This document shows, in pieces, positions 11,815-18,947 of a stretch of DNA of 64,000 nucleotides (within the stretch, counting starts at the first letter, position 1; each line of letters begins with the position of its first letter). The notes below the pieces were generated by a model. The model worked only from the letters and a program-made list of their open reading frames with translations, was not told the origin of the DNA and did not search any database. The position numbers and the translations under genes are program-made. Source of the DNA: an uncultured Lachnospiraceae bacterium (GTDB taxonomy: Bacteria > Bacillota > Clostridia > Lachnospirales > Lachnospiraceae); assembly GCA_947626435.1 (NCBI GenBank), contig CANQSB010000012.1:1-64000 (forward strand), read 5' to 3'.

Positions 11815-12096
11815 ATAATTAAGCCAACAGTTGTTATCCAAAACTGGATGCGAAATCAGGATGTGATAGAGTTTGCTGGATTATAGGACAAACCTCATAA
11901 TCAGAATTTTACCCCCATCGAATTCGATGGGACAAAATTTTGTAGGCGCAAATGCGTTTATATGTCGTCACAAAATTGGATAGAAGTTACAGAGGTTGTT
12001 AGCATTGTTGCAAAAGCAGGACGCTGTGATGGAACATATGTGCATAGTGATATTGCCATATTGTTTGCAACTTGTATTTCCCTGAAATTCGATTAA
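11815..12096 (+). pseudogene. Remnant of a KilA-N domain gene
   Basis: Translating through one stop gives VVIQNWMRNQDVIEFAGL, a stop, then NQNFTPIEFDG and, after about 10 disturbed residues, WIEVTEVVSIVAKAGRCDGT followed by YVHSDIAILFATCISLKF. These match in order the KilA-N fold seen in phage and mobile-element proteins (NWMRNRNTIEFLG, WIE-T-AIGI-SKAGR-GGTYAHKDIAFEFASW). The early stop, poor middle and missing N-terminus make it non-functional. It marks the left edge of the AT-rich island and suggests phage or mobile-element ancestry. Confidence 0.75.
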
Positions 12097-12161
12097 ATTC
12101 ATATTAATTTATATACATTCATAAGAAATCGATTGTATTCTAATATGAATTGTGTTATAAT
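12097..12161 (+). promoter_or_regulatory. Promoter and candidate operator before the HTH/ASCH/methyltransferase genes
   Basis: TTGTAT at 12133-12138, a 17-bp spacer and TATAAT at 12156-12161 form a good sigma-A promoter. A perfect 10-bp inverted repeat, ATTCATATTA (12097-12106) and TAATATGAAT (12141-12150), spans it, with the right arm between the -35 and -10. This placement suits a repressor site. Which protein binds is unknown; the HTH product at 12202 is the simplest candidate. Confidence 0.6.
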
Positions 12162-12201
12162 TTAGGATGATTAATGTTGGTGTGTATTTCGGAGGTGGCT
12201 T

Positions 12202-12396
12202 GTGACCGAGATGAATGAAGACAAATGGATAGGAATAGATGAAGCGGCAGATTATCTTGGAGTAAATAAAGACTCAATAAGAAATTGGATAAAAAAAGAT
12301 AGCGATATACCCGCTCATAAAATTGGAAAACAATGGAAATTTAAGCGCAGTGAATTGGACGAGTGGGTAAAGAGTGGGAAGAGTGCCATAGAATAA
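12202..12396 (+). CDS. Small helix-turn-helix (excisionase/MerR-like) DNA-binding protein
   Basis: A 64-residue protein made almost wholly of one winged HTH: WIGIDEAADYLGVNKDSIRN, then a basic wing HKIGKQWKFKRSELDEWV. This is the helix_turn_helix_17/excisionase-like fold used by phage excisionases and by small regulators linked to restriction-modification genes. A GGAGGTGG ribosome site supports the GTG start at 12202; an ATG at 12211 is an alternative. It is the first gene of a co-directional set with the ASCH and methyltransferase genes, so it could regulate the modification genes. Confidence 0.8.
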   Translation: MTEMNEDKWIGIDEAADYLGVNKDSIRNWIKKDSDIPAHKIGKQWKFKRSELDEWVKSGKSAIE

Positions 12397-12419
12397 AAAT
12401 TGAGAAATGAGGAATGCTT

Positions 12420-12884
12420 GTGAGAACGATGTTATTAAGCTTTAAGGCAGATGTTTTCGAAAGAGTTCTGTTGGGTGAGAAGATTTATGAACACAGAAAA
12501 GTTTTTCCGGATGAACCAATAGAGGCATATCTATATGTGAGCGCGCCGATTAAAGCTATTAAAGGCATAATGCATCTTAATAACAAAACGGAGATTGAAA
12601 GCTGGAAGCAGAAGTATTCATATGACAAAGATGCGCTAAAGCGTATTGGAGAATATTTACAGCATCATAGGTATGCGATGGAAATAACGGATTTTCAGAA
12701 TACTATAGAGATTCCATTGCAGAAATTACGGGAGGATGTTCCAGATTTTGTAGTTCCTCAGATGTATTACTTTATAGATGATAGTTTTTTACTGAATTAT
12801 CTAAAAAATAATTTAAAATATGAAGGCAAGATTATTACCCATGATTTTCATAATGTAGTGAGCAGTCAGATTTGCCAATCTTGA
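12420..12884 (+). CDS. ASCH/PUA-like domain protein
   Basis: About 154 residues. The N-terminus MLLSFKADVFERVLLGEKIY followed by EHRKVFP, and then AYLYVSAPIKAIKGIM, follow the ASCH pattern (start strand, GEK--E-RK, small-aliphatic 'ys-p---i-G'). ASCH domains share the PUA fold and are thought to bind RNA or modified nucleic acids. The start is uncertain: the ATG at 12414 overlaps the GAGGA ribosome site, so I prefer the GTG at 12420. It ends 20 bases before the methyltransferase start. A role in sensing modified bases or regulating the system is inference. Confidence 0.65.
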   Translation: MRTMLLSFKADVFERVLLGEKIYEHRKVFPDEPIEAYLYVSAPIKAIKGIMHLNNKTEIESWKQKYSYDKDALKRIGEYLQHHRYAMEITDFQNTIEIPLQKLREDVPDFVVPQMYYFIDDSFLLNYLKNNLKYEGKIITHDFHNVVSSQICQS

Positions 12885-12904
12885 CTTGGAAGGATAAAAC
12901 GGTA

Positions 12905-15900
12905 ATGAATAAAGATGAATTATGGAAAACATTGAATCAGAAAAGTCGGTCTATAGAAACTGGCATGGATTCATTAGATAGAAAACGCACAGGTAGTTAT
13001 TATACGGATCTGTCACTTACGGATATGATGATGGATGAACTTGTTGAAACAATGCATGTTAGTAAAGAAATGATTACCAGACTTAAGTTTTTTGAACCTT
13101 GTGTTGGAGCTGGCAACTTTGTTTTCTCATACATCAATAAGATTCAGGATAAGTATGACTTGTCGTGTGAGGAAGGACATAGGCTTATAGACAATATATA
13201 TGTTTCTGATATAAATACAAAGGCTTTAGAAGGGTATAAGGGTTCTCTTCGAAAACTGGCTATGTCGCTTTGGAGTTTTGAATTATCAGAAGATTATTTT
13301 AAGAGCCATGTTGGAAGTGGACTTTTGGTGGATGTTTCCGCGAAAGAATTGGATTATATTCCGCTGGAAAATGTTTTCCCACCAGAAATAGCAGATGAAA
13401 AATTCGATATTGTTGTTACGAATCCACCTTATAAGAATCTTAAAGCAGAAAGAGGGCATTATAGAACTGATGATGAGTATGAAGCCGATCAAGGCAAGTA
13501 TTCATCTATCGCAAAGATAGTATCGAGAAGGTTTAAGTATTCGCTTGATGGAGTATTAAACCTTTATAAGCTGTTTGTGGAGGAAATAATTGACAGATAT
13601 GCAAACAGCAATGCATTTATTTCGTTGCTTATACCTGCGTCAATCATGTCAGATAAGACATGTGAGAAACTAAGAACTCATATAATAAAAGATATGGATC
13701 TTTTATCGGTGAAAATGATAGGTGAAGGAAGCAGATACATAGATGCTCAACAGGCATTAAGTACTGTTTTAATCAGAAAAGGCGAAAAAACAACCAAGGT
13801 ACTTGTTGCAAAGGACTTTTATCACAGTCCTAATGATTCTGCTGAAGTTAAAGTAGAAGATATACTAAATGAAAATACTGGAAATGCAATAGTAGCATTA
13901 TCAAATAATGAGTATATGCGGCTTAATAAGCTTAGGACTTTTCCAGTTGTAAAGGATTTGGATTTTATAATAAATCTTAGGGGTGAGCTAGATCTCACAT
14001 CTAACAAAAAAAGCATTACTACTGCAAATACAGGTTATCCGCTTTTAAGAGGACGAAATATCGGGTATTATGAATTGATTGATACAGATGAACATGATTT
14101 TGTCCTAGAAGATTTTGTTATTTCAACGAAGAAGAGATGTTATATAGAAAATGAGCGAATCATTTGTCAGCAAATAGCAAACATGCACAAAGAAAGAAGA
14201 GTTACCTTTTCTTTGGTTCCAGCAAATTATGTGTTGGGTAATTCCTGTAATTTTATTTCAGTGATGGAAAATGAATTTGGAATAGACATTTACGCGATTT
14301 TAGGCTTATTTAATACAAAGATTATTAACTGGCTTTTTAAACTGACAAGCAGTAATAATCATATTAATAATTATGAGATTGATTGTTTCCCGATTCCAGT
14401 TGGCTCACCATACCTAAATGAAATATCTCAAAAAGTACAACTCTATCTGAGTAACCATGATAGAAGCATTATCAATATGATAGAAATGCTTGCTGAAAAA
14501 GCATACGGAATAGCAGAAGATGTAGAAGCTGAAGGTATGATTAGTAACACAGTTGTTGATGACTATTGCAGAGATATTGCATATATTCTTTCTGGTTTGG
14601 ATAAAATAGACGCAGAAGAGATACTTAAAGGAGAGAAGAGCATATTGTCCTTTGAGGAAGGGGTAAGTTCATTTGATAAAAAAATAATTAATGGTCTCAC
14701 TGAAAAGTATAAATCGCTGTATCATGGTTTTATTTTGAACCATACAACATTTAAGCTAAGTGATTTAGACTTGGATATGATTAAGGCTGTTCCACAAGGA
14801 GGAAGCTGGAAAGACATACCATTTGAAACGGTAAAAAAATCTAAAAGATTAGAAAAGATTACGCAAACTGGTGGAAGAACTACTTTATATGGGAGAATAG
14901 ATTATAATAAACCGAGTTATACTATTACTACATATTTTAACAGACCAGGTAATGGAACATATATCCATCCAATTCACGAACGCGTGATTTCGGTAAGAGA
15001 AGCCGCGCGGTTCCAAACATTTAGGGACGATTATTATTTCTTTGGCAACAAGACTCAGTTGTTGAAGCAGGTTGGAAATGCTGTTCCGACAGTATTGGCA
15101 TATCAAATAGGAAGAAGCATTGTTGAAAAAACGGGATGTACAAGGGCTATAGACTTGTTTTGTGGAGCTGGAGGAATGACCGCAGGATTTAAGGCAGCAG
15201 GTATATTTTCGCTTCTTAGTAATGACATAGAGGAAAGTGCTTGTGCAACATTGAAGATAAATAATCCTGAAATTCCAGTATTGTGCGGAGATATCACTCA
15301 AGAGAACACAAAGGCTGCTATTGTGGAAGCGGCAAAAAATGGTGGCGCAGATATCATATGTGGCGGACCGCCATGCCAAGGATTTTCGATGGCTGGTTTT
15401 AGGGCAGATAATGATCCTAGGAATCAATTGTTCAGAGAATTTGTGGATATTGTAAGAAGAGTGAATCCAAAGATTATTGTTTTTGAAAATGTAGAGGGTT
15501 TGATTAGTTATCAAGGTGGAAAGACATATAGAGAGGTGCATGCACTTTTCTCTGAACTTGGTTATAAAACAGAGGGGCGTTCTTTGATGGCAAGTGATTA
15601 TGCCGTTCCGCAGAAAAGGAAAAGGGTAATTGTTATTTGTACTAGAAATGATTTGGGAATAGAGCCAAGTGAATTGTATCCAGAGAAAATAACAGTAAGA
15701 GAAAGTCATCAGGTCACTGCAAGAGAAACCATTGGCGATTTAGAGAAAGTTGATTGTTCCGATACGGCTGAGTACATCCCTGGAGATGAAAGTGATATTT
15801 TACAATTTCTAAAGGGAAGGATTTCTTATGAGGATTATGTAAAAGGAAGAAACGCAGAAAAGCCATTTAAAGAAACAGTTTACGATTTGATTGTTGACAA

Positions 15901-15928
15901 TAACGGTCAATTATCATTCTGCATATAA
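12905..15928 (+). CDS. Fused type IIS modification methyltransferase: N6-adenine domain plus circularly permuted C5-cytosine domain
   Basis: A 1007-residue bifunctional DNA methyltransferase. Residues 1 to about 560 form a gamma-type N6-adenine enzyme with motif I FEPCVGAGNF (about 63-72), catalytic NPPY (about 173-176) and an Eco57I/TaqI-like recognition part (GYPLLRGRNIGYYE; NNHINNYEIDCFPIP). After a linker comes a C5-cytosine methyltransferase whose motifs are out of the usual order. Motifs IX-X (SVREAARFQTF near 696; QVGNAVP near 722) precede motif I (DLFCGAGG near 750), the catalytic PPCQGFS (near 822), ENVEG (near 862) and QKRKRV (near 903). This is a circular permutation. The ATG at 12905 is chosen over TTG at 12872. 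The endonuclease is convergent. One domain per strand fits an asymmetric type IIS site. Confidence 0.95.
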   Translation: MNKDELWKTLNQKSRSIETGMDSLDRKRTGSYYTDLSLTDMMMDELVETMHVSKEMITRLKFFEPCVGAGNFVFSYINKIQDKYDLSCEEGHRLIDNIYVSDINTKALEGYKGSLRKLAMSLWSFELSEDYFKSHVGSGLLVDVSAKELDYIPLENVFPPEIADEKFDIVVTNPPYKNLKAERGHYRTDDEYEADQGKYSSIAKIVSRRFKYSLDGVLNLYKLFVEEIIDRYANSNAFISLLIPASIMSDKTCEKLRTHIIKDMDLLSVKMIGEGSRYIDAQQALSTVLIRKGEKTTKVLVAKDFYHSPNDSAEVKVEDILNENTGNAIVALSNNEYMRLNKLRTFPVVKDLDFIINLRGELDLTSNKKSITTANTGYPLLRGRNIGYYELIDTDEHDFVLEDFVISTKKRCYIENERIICQQIANMHKERRVTFSLVPANYVLGNSCNFISVMENEFGIDIYAILGLFNTKIINWLFKLTSSNNHINNYEIDCFPIPVGSPYLNEISQKVQLYLSNHDRSIINMIEMLAEKAYGIAEDVEAEGMISNTVVDDYCRDIAYILSGLDKIDAEEILKGEKSILSFEEGVSSFDKKIINGLTEKYKSLYHGFILNHTTFKLSDLDLDMIKAVPQGGSWKDIPFETVKKSKRLEKITQTGGRTTLYGRIDYNKPSYTITTYFNRPGNGTYIHPIHERVISVREAARFQTFRDDYYFFGNKTQLLKQVGNAVPTVLAYQIGRSIVEKTGCTRAIDLFCGAGGMTAGFKAAGIFSLLSNDIEESACATLKINNPEIPVLCGDITQENTKAAIVEAAKNGGADIICGGPPCQGFSMAGFRADNDPRNQLFREFVDIVRRVNPKIIVFENVEGLISYQGGKTYREVHALFSELGYKTEGRSLMASDYAVPQKRKRVIVICTRNDLGIEPSELYPEKITVRESHQVTARETIGDLEKVDCSDTAEYIPGDESDILQFLKGRISYEDYVKGRNAEKPFKETVYDLIVDNNGQLSFCI

Positions 15929-15937
15929 AAGAGGTGA

Positions 15938-15976
15938 ATGAGTAGAGGCAGATGAATCTGCTTCTACTCATCTTTT
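15938..15976. terminator. Bidirectional terminator between methyltransferase and endonuclease genes
   Basis: ATGAGTAGAGGCAGAT and ATCTGCTTCTACTCAT form a stem with one offset, followed by TTTTT on the plus strand and preceded by A-rich sequence for the minus strand. It fills the 57-bp gap between the two convergent genes. Confidence 0.85.
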
Positions 15977-15985
15977 TGCCTGGCT

Positions 15986-17383
15986 TTACAGAGAGGAAAT
16001 TAGACGGTGCTCAATTTTTTCAATAAGCATAATTAACATTTTATAACACTCATTATAGTTATGGGAAGAGTTAAGCTTTTTGCACAGAGAAGATAAATCT
16101 TGTAATTCATCTTGGTTAAGGTTGTTATTTATATTTCGATTATTCTTGTCATTGTAGTCATAAACTGAGTTTATAGCTATGCGTTTATAGCGTTCTGTTT
16201 CGTTTTGATTTCTATCAGTAAAATGACGAGGCCGCTGTGATATTATTTCACCATTTGAGTTAAACTCATATGAGTAGTTAAAGCAATCATAGTGCGGAGC
16301 CAAGAGTTTTTGCTCAAGAAAATCTTCGCCATAAGCAGGGCAATCTTCAAGTATGGTCCAGAGGATGAACATGAAATTTGCCATATTTTGTTTAAGTGCA
16401 TCTCGATAAACTGTAGCTACAATGTTGGAATGAGATTTATAGTTTGACAAAATAAATTCCCATATAAGCTTTGAATACCAGGACATAGGATATATTTTTG
16501 TCCGATTATGGGTTTCTATTATCTTTTCAATGTCCTCAATCTGTAGGCGATCTCGTTTAGCGGAGTTGTCACCTCCAGGCATTGGCTGGAGATAACGAGG
16601 ATCGTGTATGAAACCAAGCGATATCGGTCCAATGTGGTCAGCCGAAATACCATCGAAAAAAGAACTTCCCATAAACTGATTTGCAGCATGAATATTGCCA
16701 TCACTCCAGTATTCATAAGCGCGTCGATCTTTAGTGTAAGATTTCAAGTTTTCTTTTGATCGTCCTTTATCTTGGGAAGATCTACAGCAACGATTATATG
16801 TATGGAAGCCGTCATAACGATCTGGAAAATTAGACATTGCTCCAGGTCCTAAAAGTTTTTTGTTTCCTTTGCGACAAGCAAGTTCGAGGGCATCTATTAT
16901 TTCTTCCTTTGATGCATCGTCTGGCTTGAGGTTAAGGTCGCCTTTGTTTATAAGGTATTTTGCAAGTTCCCGCTTTTTTACTCCAGATTCAATAAGTGTA
17001 TCCCAAATATCTGAGATATGATCGCAGTCGGAAAAATCAGCGTGAAAATCTTTATTTAGTGATTTGACGAAATTTGCATTTGGATAGTGATAATATAGGG
17101 ACATTAGTCTTCCGCATGTTTGACATACTTTCCATTTTGTAGGATGAATTGCCAGCATAACATCTGCATATACTCCTGAACGACGAGCAAAGCCGAGCTC
17201 ATCAGCCTTTTCTAGGCACCATTCTATACGCTCTTCGCCAATCTTTGATTTTGCTGTAGCAATCCAAGATAGAGAGTTGTCATTTTTTTTCTTGATAGGA
17301 AGCCCCTTATAATTTGGATGATTAACAATCATATTCATATAAGCTATGAATCGATCATTCCATTTGCGCTTTTCTCTGGCCAT
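15986..17383 (-). CDS. Type IIS restriction endonuclease, Alw26I/Eco31I/Esp3I family (HNH)
   Basis: A 465-residue protein. I recognise the Alw26I/Eco31I/Esp3I family from the CQTCGRLMSLYYHYPN segment (Cys87, Cys90), the FHTYNRCCRSSQDKGRS segment and the HNH-like core SADHIGPISLGF...LQPMPGGDNSAKRDRL (Asp249-His250, Asn273, Lys276). These enzymes cut outside short asymmetric sites related to GTCTC (GTCTC, GGTCTC and CGTCTC for the namesakes). The exact site here cannot be read from sequence. The active-site residues are present and the frame is intact. The gene lies 40 bases after the glycosylase stop, in one minus-strand operon. The low GC content matches the methyltransferase and differs from the flanking sugar genes. 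Confidence 0.88.
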   Translation of the reverse strand: MAREKRKWNDRFIAYMNMIVNHPNYKGLPIKKKNDNSLSWIATAKSKIGEERIEWCLEKADELGFARRSGVYADVMLAIHPTKWKVCQTCGRLMSLYYHYPNANFVKSLNKDFHADFSDCDHISDIWDTLIESGVKKRELAKYLINKGDLNLKPDDASKEEIIDALELACRKGNKKLLGPGAMSNFPDRYDGFHTYNRCCRSSQDKGRSKENLKSYTKDRRAYEYWSDGNIHAANQFMGSSFFDGISADHIGPISLGFIHDPRYLQPMPGGDNSAKRDRLQIEDIEKIIETHNRTKIYPMSWYSKLIWEFILSNYKSHSNIVATVYRDALKQNMANFMFILWTILEDCPAYGEDFLEQKLLAPHYDCFNYSYEFNSNGEIISQRPRHFTDRNQNETERYKRIAINSVYDYNDKNNRNINNNLNQDELQDLSSLCKKLNSSHNYNECYKMLIMLIEKIEHRLISSL

Positions 17384-17423
17384 AGTCTTTCCTCCATGCG
17401 TATTTATAGGCGTATATTAAGCC

Positions 17424-18074
17424 TTATTTATATAGGTAAAACTCATTTTTTAAGAAACCTTCATCCAATGCTCGATATAAAAATCTGGAAGCTATTGACG
17501 AATAGGGTTTCCATTTTTGACATTTCTTGCGGACGCTTTCAGGCGAAACATCTTTGGTCTTGTATAGCCATTTGTAACTCTGCAAAAATGCATTGTCTTC
17601 TATGGGAAGTACATCTTCTCTGTCAAGAACAAAAATTAAGTACATTTTGGCTGTCCAATTTCCAATTCCTTTGATACCAGTTAGCTTTCTGATGATTTCT
17701 TTATCTGTTTTCTCGGATAGAGAATCCAAACATAAAGTACCGTTGATTATGGCGTTGGTTAAAGCGCGTATGTACGAAACCTTGTTTTGCGATGTTCCTG
17801 TTGCTTTTAACTCGCCATCAGTAAGGTTTGATATTGATGTTGGGGTAATAAGTCCGTTACATAATTCGGATAGTCGACCGTATATTTTTGCACCTGCTTT
17901 AATTGATAGCATTTGTTCAATGATTTCATGAACAAGAAACGCATATGGCTCATCGGAGTGGGGCGAGTAAGTTATTGGTCCGACCATACTGATTACTTTT
18001 GCAAGTCGCTTATCTTTTTCGCATAAGTACTGTACTGAGGTGGTGTCCATATTCAACGTAATAATTTCTGACAT
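17424..18074 (-). CDS. HhH-GPD DNA glycosylase (AlkA-like)
   Basis: A 216-residue base-excision glycosylase. The helix-hairpin-helix and Gly/Pro-rich loop read LTGIKGIGNWTAKMYLIFVL (131-150), followed by DREDVLPIED with Asp160 in the catalytic position. No Fe-S cysteine cluster follows, which points to the AlkA (3-methyladenine glycosylase II) branch rather than Nth/MutY. The ribosome site AGGAGGAAAT overlaps the end of the XRE remnant upstream. It sits between that regulator and the endonuclease in one operon. Inside a restriction-modification cassette it may repair base damage linked to methylation, such as alkylated bases or T:G from deaminated 5-methylcytosine. That specific role is inference. 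Confidence 0.85.
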   Translation of the reverse strand: MSEIITLNMDTTSVQYLCEKDKRLAKVISMVGPITYSPHSDEPYAFLVHEIIEQMLSIKAGAKIYGRLSELCNGLITPTSISNLTDGELKATGTSQNKVSYIRALTNAIINGTLCLDSLSEKTDKEIIRKLTGIKGIGNWTAKMYLIFVLDREDVLPIEDNAFLQSYKWLYKTKDVSPESVRKKCQKWKPYSSIASRFLYRALDEGFLKNEFYLYK

Positions 18075-18086
18075 ATTTCCTCCTGT

Positions 18087-18308
18087 TTATAGTCCGTCAA
18101 AGAGTTCGCTTAATGATATCCCTAAGTCGTCGGTTATTTTCTTTATGCTAACTATTGAGATATTGCATTTTCGTGCTTTGACAGTGGCAAAATAAGTTTT
18201 ATCCATTTCAATCTTATAAGCAAACTTTTCATGGCTCCTCCCAGTGTTATTGGTTCTGAGTTTGCGGATTCGTTTGCCGAGCTCTTCCTAAATAATTGTA
18301 TTTCTCTC
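18087..18308 (-). pseudogene. Broken XRE/C-protein-like regulator
   Basis: From a TAG at 18288-18290 (minus strand) the frame reads EELGKRIRKLRTNNTGRSHE, then KFAYKIEMDKTYFATVKARK and NISIVSIKKITDDLGISLSE to LFDGL. This is a full XRE-type HTH like the controller (C) proteins of restriction systems. Upstream of the TAG, in frame, lie codons for RNTII where such proteins usually begin MNTI; an AGA stands where ATG would be expected. So the start and one codon appear mutated. The stop lies 12 bases before the glycosylase ATG. A truncated product from the internal ATG (EMDKT) is possible but would lack half the HTH. Confidence 0.7.
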
Positions 18309-18317
18309 TAAATTTAT

Positions 18318-18346
18318 ATTATAGCGGTAAACGGTGTTTAAAGCAA
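18318..18346 (-). promoter_or_regulatory. Promoter with palindrome for the XRE-glycosylase-endonuclease operon
   Basis: On the minus strand, TTGCTT (18341-18346), a 17-bp spacer and TATAAT (18318-18323) form a good promoter. The spacer contains the inverted repeat TAAAC-ACC-GTTTA (18328-18340), placed where an autoregulator would bind. Transcription would begin almost at the first codon of the broken XRE gene, as in leaderless C-protein operons. Confidence 0.6.
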
Positions 18347-18375
18347 TGATTTATAAGCGATATATGAGTTAAATT

Positions 18376-18432
18376 GATATGGCACATGAGTTGGGACATA
18401 TTTTTGATGCATCCATGGGAGGAAAGCAATGA
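18376..18432 (+). pseudogene. Fragment with zinc-peptidase motif HELGH
   Basis: A short frame reads DMAHELGHIFDASMGGKQ then stops. HELGH fits the HEXXH zinc site of small metallopeptidases such as the ImmA/IrrE type. Further in-frame sequence is disrupted, though NEDLDKDVFKALAIYY in another frame just downstream may belong to the same relic. The family call is tentative because so little remains. Confidence 0.4.
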
Positions 18433-18586
18433 AGACCTTGATAAAGATGTATTCAAGGCTCTTGCCATTTATTATAGCAGTAGTACTTGCTTATATCAAT
18501 CATCAATCCGCTTGTTTTTTTATCACAAACAAGTTTACAGAAATGATTTGACATTGCAAGACAAATACAACATAATTGTATAGAAG

Positions 18587-18745
18587 ATGTCAAAGTATGG
18601 CATAGACTTTGATGAGGCAAGCACTGTGTTTTTAACAAAATGGCTTTTTTATTTGACAATCCGGAACATTCCAAGAATGACGAAAGATTTATATTGTCGG
18701 AAAGCGACAAAAAAGGAGGAAATGATATATGTTAGAGGAATATGA
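18587..18745 (+). pseudogene. brnT: Decayed brnT toxin gene
   Basis: BrnT-like phrases appear in shifting frames: MSKYGIDFDEASTVF, then MAFLFDNPEHSKNDERFIL in the next frame, then CRKATKKEEMIYVRGI in the first frame again, ending at TGA 18743-18745. The order matches a BrnT toxin (KHGIDF--A--VF, EH---E-R, ARKATK-E), but the strand segment between the last two is deleted. Its end overlaps the brnA start by 17 bases, the normal arrangement for this toxin-antitoxin pair. It cannot encode a working ribonuclease. Confidence 0.7.
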
Positions 18746-18947
18746 TAATATTGACGAACTAAATCCAAGACAAAACCCTTATGCAAAGGAGCTAAAAAAG
18801 CAGGTAACAATCAAAATTTCACCATTTATCATTGATTATTTCAAGCAGCAGGCGAGCAAGGTAGGAATACCATATCAAACGCTTATTAACCTGTATTTGT
18901 CGGATTGCGTGAATAATAAAAGAGAACTGCAGATGACATGGAAATAA
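18729..18947 (+). CDS. brnA: BrnA-like antitoxin (ribbon-helix-helix)
   Basis: A 72-residue protein with a C-terminal ribbon-helix-helix domain (KKQVTIKISPFIIDYFKQQA, then GIPYQTLINLYLSDCV). It is preceded by an N-terminal segment ending NPYAKELK, as in BrnA antitoxins paired with BrnT. The ribosome site AAAAAGGAGGAAATGAT lies within the decayed toxin gene. The antitoxin frame is intact while the toxin is broken. This is the usual order of decay, since the antitoxin alone is harmless. It may still act as a small repressor. Confidence 0.78.
   Translation: MLEEYDNIDELNPRQNPYAKELKKQVTIKISPFIIDYFKQQASKVGIPYQTLINLYLSDCVNNKRELQMTWK

Follow-up and report, generated by a model that had tools for sequence, protein, structure and literature searches.

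The closest described relatives of the system reported here belong to the type IIS restriction-modification (RM) systems of the Alw26I/Eco31I/Esp3I family. M.Esp3I, tabled as gammaM~[GAGACG]~m5C-MTase, is a gamma methyltransferase (MTase) fused to a 5-methylcytosine (m5C) MTase, and the same applies to Esp3I/BsmBI (PMC3874165). M.Esp3I and M.BsmBI are also included among the 27 naturally permuted cytosine-C5 MTase sequences counted in REBASE, and the enzymes of this kind mentioned by name are M.Alw26I, M2.Eco31I, M.Esp3I, M2.BsaI and M.BssHII (PMC5944983). For a homologue of Eco31I, N6-methyladenine (m6A) was observed on one strand and m5C was predicted on the other (PMC4659465). The window analyzed here, i.e. 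a stretch of 64,000 nucleotides from an uncultured Lachnospiraceae bacterium (assembly GCA_947626435.1, contig CANQSB010000012.1, positions 1 to 64,000 of the forward strand; host genome of 3.7 Mb in 98 contigs), contains a fused adenine and cytosine MTase, a facing endonuclease and, next to the latter, a DNA glycosylase (Table 1). Judging from sequence similarity and by analogy with the characterized relatives, the locus is very likely a chromosomal type IIS RM system of the Alw26I/Eco31I/Esp3I family, whose fused MTase would protect both strands and whose endonuclease would cut unprotected DNA. The initial annotation of the locus had supposed that related fusions exist, in agreement with the published M.Esp3I and Esp3I/BsmBI (PMC3874165, PMC5944983), and had suggested that the novelty may lie in the site, the host and the associated genes rather than in the fusion, of which the associated genes turned out to be the useful part. 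The fusion is of an already known kind, ordinary for its family, and adds one further natural double MTase; the main interest lies in the glycosylase partner.

The open reading frame (ORF) of the fused MTase is unbroken from ATG to stop (a mechanical ORF list starts it at an upstream TTG, 12872) and holds both MTases in one polypeptide, with the gamma half at the N-terminus. This half is matched by Pfam Eco57I and TaqI_C and exhibits FEPCVGAGNF and NPPY at protein positions 63 and 173. In a whole-genome profile search, Pfam DNA_methylase matched the other half in two pieces whose order is permuted (profile 196-323 at 14729-15124, followed by profile 2-196 at 15143-15754). For the adenine MTase, TIGR02987 (met_A_Alw26) scored 501 bits against a curated cut-off of 353.5, which together with the permuted match confirms the earlier assignment of an N6-adenine and a circularly permuted C5 MTase to a single polypeptide. 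The sequence blocks that we take to be the C5 motifs were found in the order read initially, i.e. IX (protein position 693), X (QVGNAVP, 722), I (DLFCGAGG, 750), IV (GGPPCQGFS, 820), VI (FENVEG, 860) and VIII (QKRKRV, 903). A read error, which the initial annotation had considered as a possible source of this order, is ruled out, because the permuted order is common to 8 of 8 aligned sequences. The PADLOC profile MTase_II PDLC03237 spans residues 23-952, hence both halves, in a single stretch, so a profile for the fused kind already exists.

The facing endonuclease, whose gene is convergent with that of the fused MTase, was confidently identified by TIGR02986 (474.7 bits, curated cut-off 443.85) and Pfam RE_Alw26IDE (266.8 bits) as a member of the Alw26I/Eco31I/Esp3I type to which it had been assigned from the letters alone; it carries a DHIGPISLG...DNSAK block, presumably of the HNH kind. 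By analogy, the gamma half would modify the GAGAC strand with m6A and the permuted C5 half the GTCTC strand with m5C; DNA left unprotected by the fused enzyme would be cleaved by the endonuclease. As far as published descriptions allow a comparison, M.Esp3I/M.BsmBI with R.Esp3I/R.BsmBI (type IIS, CGTCTC) likewise represent an Alw26I-type system with a gamma plus permuted m5C fusion, whereas in the window genes for HTH_17, ASCH-like and glycosylase proteins are attached. Eco31I/EcoMI (GGTCTC) share the endonuclease and MTase families and the location of the endonuclease gene on the opposite strand, but have two separate MTase genes and an adjoining McrBC. Two plasmids, pEGM183 of Enterococcus faecalis and pLLNCDO1820B of Lactococcus, encode fused enzymes with 44% and 43% identity and convergent endonucleases with 52% and 49% identity over the matched part, respectively; unlike in the window, no glycosylase or ASCH-like gene was found at these two loci.

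The glycosylase gene precedes the endonuclease gene, at a distance of 40 bp and with the same orientation, and its product is matched by Pfam HhH-GPD (50.1 bits, cut-off 26.2). The nearest solved structures are the AlkA2/Mag1 alkyl-base glycosylases 2h56, 2yg8 and 3s6i, which match over nearly the whole length and with whose Asp residue, which we take to be catalytic, Asp160 is aligned. The window's protein belongs to a subfamily with the consensus TAKM and LPxED, as opposed to TAEM and SxGD in generic AlkA, and, unlike the AlkA2/Mag1 glycosylases, this subfamily was found in restriction loci. Matches at 1e-10 are present in 40 of 397 genomes of the host's taxonomic family, of which only six, the window's included, reach 48% identity, the others having at most 35%. 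The subfamily was accordingly delimited to these six genomes, a further Alw26I-type locus (L016), one genome of the same class (G558), two phages and viral contigs, the most distant of which (L205) shows 41% identity. Among 16 Alw26I-type loci (the window, L010-L016, L050, L051, L053, L054, L059, L060, L063 and L064; not counted were L018, L019 and L061, which are fragments or weak matches, and L062 and L017, which are duplicate contigs), a glycosylase adjoins the endonuclease in three, i.e. the window, L014 and L016, several of the contigs ending early. In all three the glycosylase gene immediately precedes the endonuclease gene on the same strand, with gaps of 40, 39 and 24 bp, respectively.

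A search with eight C5 MTase queries revealed a C5 MTase within 6 kb of the glycosylase in 17 of 25 subfamily loci and in 0 of 20 generic AlkA loci (Fisher p 1.1e-6); none was found at the two loci with an intermediate glycosylase or at the three generic AlkA loci of viral origin. A control set of integrase loci, drawn from the same collection as the viral contigs, had a C5 MTase nearby in 1 of 79 cases (1 of 40 when only loci with flanks of 7 kb or more are counted; L211, being the contig of L069, was excluded). With three loci added and the limit set at 6.5 kb, the count is 19 of 28 glycosylase loci. Endonucleases encoded within 0.4 kb of the glycosylase represent eight families: Alw26I, SacI, Eco47II, HaeII, HincII, PDLC03402, PDLC03447 (both from PADLOC) and Bsp6I, the last at 402 bp. 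In 10 loci the endonuclease gene follows directly downstream on the same strand, with a gap of 2 to 82 bp in nine and of 162 bp in L070, where the glycosylase frame is broken. One of the phages, Terrisporobacter phage TPDSL_ph1 (L066, 8786-13955), unites in a single block the genes for an XRE regulator, the glycosylase, a PDLC03402-type endonuclease, two C5 MTases and an ASCH-like protein. Among the matches listed in the literature search, as far as the excerpts go, there was no report of an AlkA-like glycosylase inside restriction operons, and the excerpts of a paper on restriction glycosylases (PMC10273834) mention neither AlkA nor HhH.

The association between the glycosylase and C5 MTases is strong but incomplete, and several observations weigh against a dedicated partnership. 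Within the viral loci alone, the difference between the subfamily (12 of 18 with a C5 MTase) and generic AlkA (0 of 3) has a p of 0.063, and the flanks of the integrase control (563 kb in 79 loci) are shorter than those of the glycosylases. Two of the loci counted among the 19 have their C5 gene as far away as 4.6 kb (L078) and 5.7 kb (L079), and the latter adjoins HincII, whose MTase is a gamma enzyme (PMC3874165). No C5 gene was found in nine of the 28 loci: L075, L076, L077 and L206 gave only N-type MTases (L076 and L077 carry an identical glycosylase gene), and in L055, L058, L065, L074 and L081 the queries used found no MTase; in three of the C5-negative loci one of the flanks is shorter than 2 kb (L055; L065, 1.5 kb; L081, 48 bp). 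Thus, the link to C5 MTases is strong without being exclusive, and the candidate role of the glycosylase as a C5-only partner is weakened by L075, L076, L077, L206 and L079. Alternatively, the glycosylase and ASCH-like genes may be passengers that accumulate in the same mobile islands and have no link to methylation. The incompleteness of the association (19 of 28 at best) and the presence of the glycosylase at only three of 16 Alw26I-type loci, another point against a dedicated role, would agree with this; we nevertheless consider it unlikely, given the rarity of C5 genes near integrases of the same collection, the short gaps between glycosylase and endonuclease in nine of 10 loci and the recurrence of unrelated endonuclease families beside the glycosylase. 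A further point against the partnership is that Lamassu LmuB (identified with PADLOC) adjoins the glycosylase in four of the 28 loci (L065, L074, L081 and L206), which would fit an independent anti-phage effector that acts on modified phage bases the endonuclease is unable to cut and merely shares the island. Glycosylases that excise 5-hydroxymethylcytosine or its glucosylated form do defend against phages (Brig3 preprint, PMC13160076), but Brig3 belongs to the uracil-glycosylase superfamily rather than to HhH and the linkage to C5 MTases would then be incidental, so that this role appears rather improbable.

As to the function of the glycosylase, it would form part of the restriction operon and remove damaging side products of DNA methylation in a host that lacks AlkB, a repair enzyme dependent on oxygen. 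Our preferred, if tentative, reading is that its substrate is 3-methylcytosine (3mC) made by the C5 half, because its relatives are of the AlkA2/Mag1 type, because of published findings on Mag1 and on 3mC made by MTases, and because AlkB is missing from the genomes searched. The preferred substrate of yeast Mag1 is 3mC, and in anaerobes the oxygen-dependent AlkB may be replaced by glycosylases (PMC6746446); 3mC is generated at a low level by M.SssI and DNMT3A, and an evolutionary link connects ALKB2 with DNMTs (PMC6266221). The search for AlkB (PF13532) covered the window's taxonomic family, with 0 of 150 genomes positive, and 14 control genomes, of which three were positive. On a still more tentative footing, the RM systems of anaerobes may be equipped with a dedicated AlkA2-like glycosylase for the repair of collateral damage (3mC) from their own MTases, as an oxygen-free counterpart of the reported DNMT-ALKB2 link. 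Nearly as likely as 3mC repair, though doubtful in its own right, is T:G repair, in which the glycosylase would stand in for Vsr and remove T (or U) opposite G after deamination of m5C. This is what the methanogen enzyme Mig.MthI, an HhH T/G and U/G glycosylase, is said to do in countering deaminated m5C (PMC2714593), and both Vsr and Mig.MthI resemble the window's glycosylase in being repair enzymes tied to m5C methylation. The strong C5 linkage of the subfamily is consistent with such a role, and in the three Alw26I-type loci with a glycosylase two Vsr queries gave no match in its vicinity; the window's own genome has one Vsr, on another contig. However, Vsr is of another fold, Mig represents another HhH branch, and the nearest solved relatives of the window's protein are alkyl-base glycosylases. 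Moreover, four glycosylase loci have only N-type MTases, and the subfamily also occurs together with Pfam Vsr, 550 bp away in L204 and 31 bp away in L205, so that a T:G repair enzyme is already present there.

Within the 16 Alw26I-type loci the MTase is fused in 12; among the unfused cases, the halves are encoded by separate genes in L053 and in L063 from E. coli, and L064 retains only pieces. The endonuclease and the C5 half of L063 are 35% and 42% identical to the window's, respectively, and this locus is taken as Eco31I-type. In the closest relative (L015, 6001-8993, 85-87% identical) the two halves are separate ORFs that overlap by ATGA, which may mean either that the gene has truly split or that the contig is misassembled; there, an ORF that looks Cas9-like by eye adjoins the endonuclease. 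In L054 (724-3529), an IMG/VR viral contig, two tandem Alw26I-type endonuclease genes face one fused MTase; their products share 66% and 46% identity with the window's endonuclease, and both retain the DHIGPISLG block. TIGR02986 matches were found in five of 397 genomes of the taxonomic family (one weak and broken) and in four of 391 genomes of the class (two weak).

The predicted recognition sequence was compared with word usage in 424 kb of the window's own genome and in six further samples. GTCTC occurs 261 times in the 424 kb, with an observed/expected ratio (O/E) of 0.54, and ranks among the three 5-mer pairs most strongly depleted there. Two results prevent this depletion from being ascribed to the system. 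In 89 kb of a genome from the same genus (G196, L189-L194), GTCTC shows the strongest depletion of all 5-mers (11 seen, 77 expected, O/E 0.14), and there neither an Alw26I-type endonuclease nor a fused MTase was found, only a partial C5 match; in Lachnospiraceae bacterium AC3007, which has the whole system, GTCTC is not depleted (O/E 0.98). Four other comparison samples gave O/E values of 0.94-0.98. Since depletion is stronger in a genome without the endonuclease and absent from one with the system, avoidance does not tie GTCTC to the system, and the word counts speak neither for nor against a GTCTC core; assignment of the site by this route was therefore rejected. For the hexamers, the own genome has 106 CGTCTC (88 expected) and 30 GGTCTC (44 expected). 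Other words depleted in the 424 kb, i.e. CCAGG/CCTGG (O/E 0.35), CACGTG (0.13), GTTAAC (0.16), GAATTC (0.22) and the GANTC words (0.57-0.59), suggest several further past or present restriction systems.

The MTase gene is preceded by genes for an HTH_17 protein and an ASCH-like protein, and the glycosylase gene by the remnant of an XRE regulator gene (Table 1). An HTH_17 gene is found upstream of the MTase in seven of the 16 Alw26I-type loci (the window and six others), and relatives head other MTase genes in L204 (11938-12126, 81% identity, C5) and L206 (10771-10956, 65%, N-type), which suggests that HTH_17 is a mobile MTase regulator. The ASCH-like protein itself has no Pfam match above the cut-off; its homologue in L131 is matched by Pfam ASCH (24.4 bits, cut-off 21.2). 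Its gene lies upstream of the MTase in five of the 16 loci (in two pieces in L011), and homologues occur near five of the 28 glycosylase loci, all five of which also have a C5 MTase. The XRE remnant is 65% identical to the XRE protein encoded upstream of the glycosylase in L067; a stop directly precedes its frame, the head of which has no ordinary start codon. An XRE regulator is present within 6.5 kb in 14 of the 28 glycosylase loci, in nine of them directly upstream at no more than 110 bp. Probably, the HTH_17 protein controls the MTase side and the XRE protein, now decayed in the window, once controlled the glycosylase-endonuclease side. It could be argued from the broken XRE regulator and from the persistence of GTCTC sites in the own genome that the locus is decaying and that the system may be silent or the MTase alone active. 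This is quite doubtful, as the frames of the endonuclease, the fused MTase and the glycosylase are all intact, and no XRE match was obtained for L014 and L016, which possess the glycosylase-endonuclease pair. Terminator-like sites in 11900-18500 number three (3.4 expected by chance), the one between the convergent genes having the longest stem. Further along the window (18729-18947), a small ORF resembles a BrnA-type antitoxin by eye, and a fragment upstream of it resembles a broken partner.

Table 1. Features of the RM locus and the evidence for their assignment
Feature	Position	Strand	Evidence
HTH_17 (excisionase-like) DNA-binding protein, 64 aa	12202..12396	+	Pfam HTH_17, 61.3 bits (cut-off 27)
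ASCH-like protein, 156 aa, PADLOC candidate family PDC-M11B	12414..12884	+	PDC-M11B, 3.1e-11
Fused gamma N6-adenine and circularly permuted C5-cytosine MTase, 1007 aa	12905..15928	+	ORF, Pfam, TIGR, PADLOC, motifs
Terminator-like hairpin between convergent genes, 15 pairs, T-rich tail	15938..15971	+	
Alw26I/Eco31I/Esp3I-type restriction endonuclease, 465 aa	15986..17383	-	TIGR02986, Pfam RE_Alw26IDE
AlkA2/Mag1-like HhH-GPD DNA glycosylase, 216 aa	17424..18074	-	Pfam HhH-GPD; structure relatives
XRE (Cro/C1) regulator gene remnant, upstream of glycosylase	18090..18296	-	65% identity to L067 XRE

The location of the glycosylase next to cytosine-methylating RM systems of several unrelated kinds hints that bacteria living without oxygen may have an activity devoted to clearing damage from methylation. 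The subfamily found near endonucleases of eight families provides a concrete set of genes with which this repair idea may be tested at the bench. If the glycosylase repairs lesions made by the MTases, bacteria, too, would be under selection from the collateral damage that DNA methylation causes, and such repair would account for how anaerobes without AlkB tolerate methylation damage.

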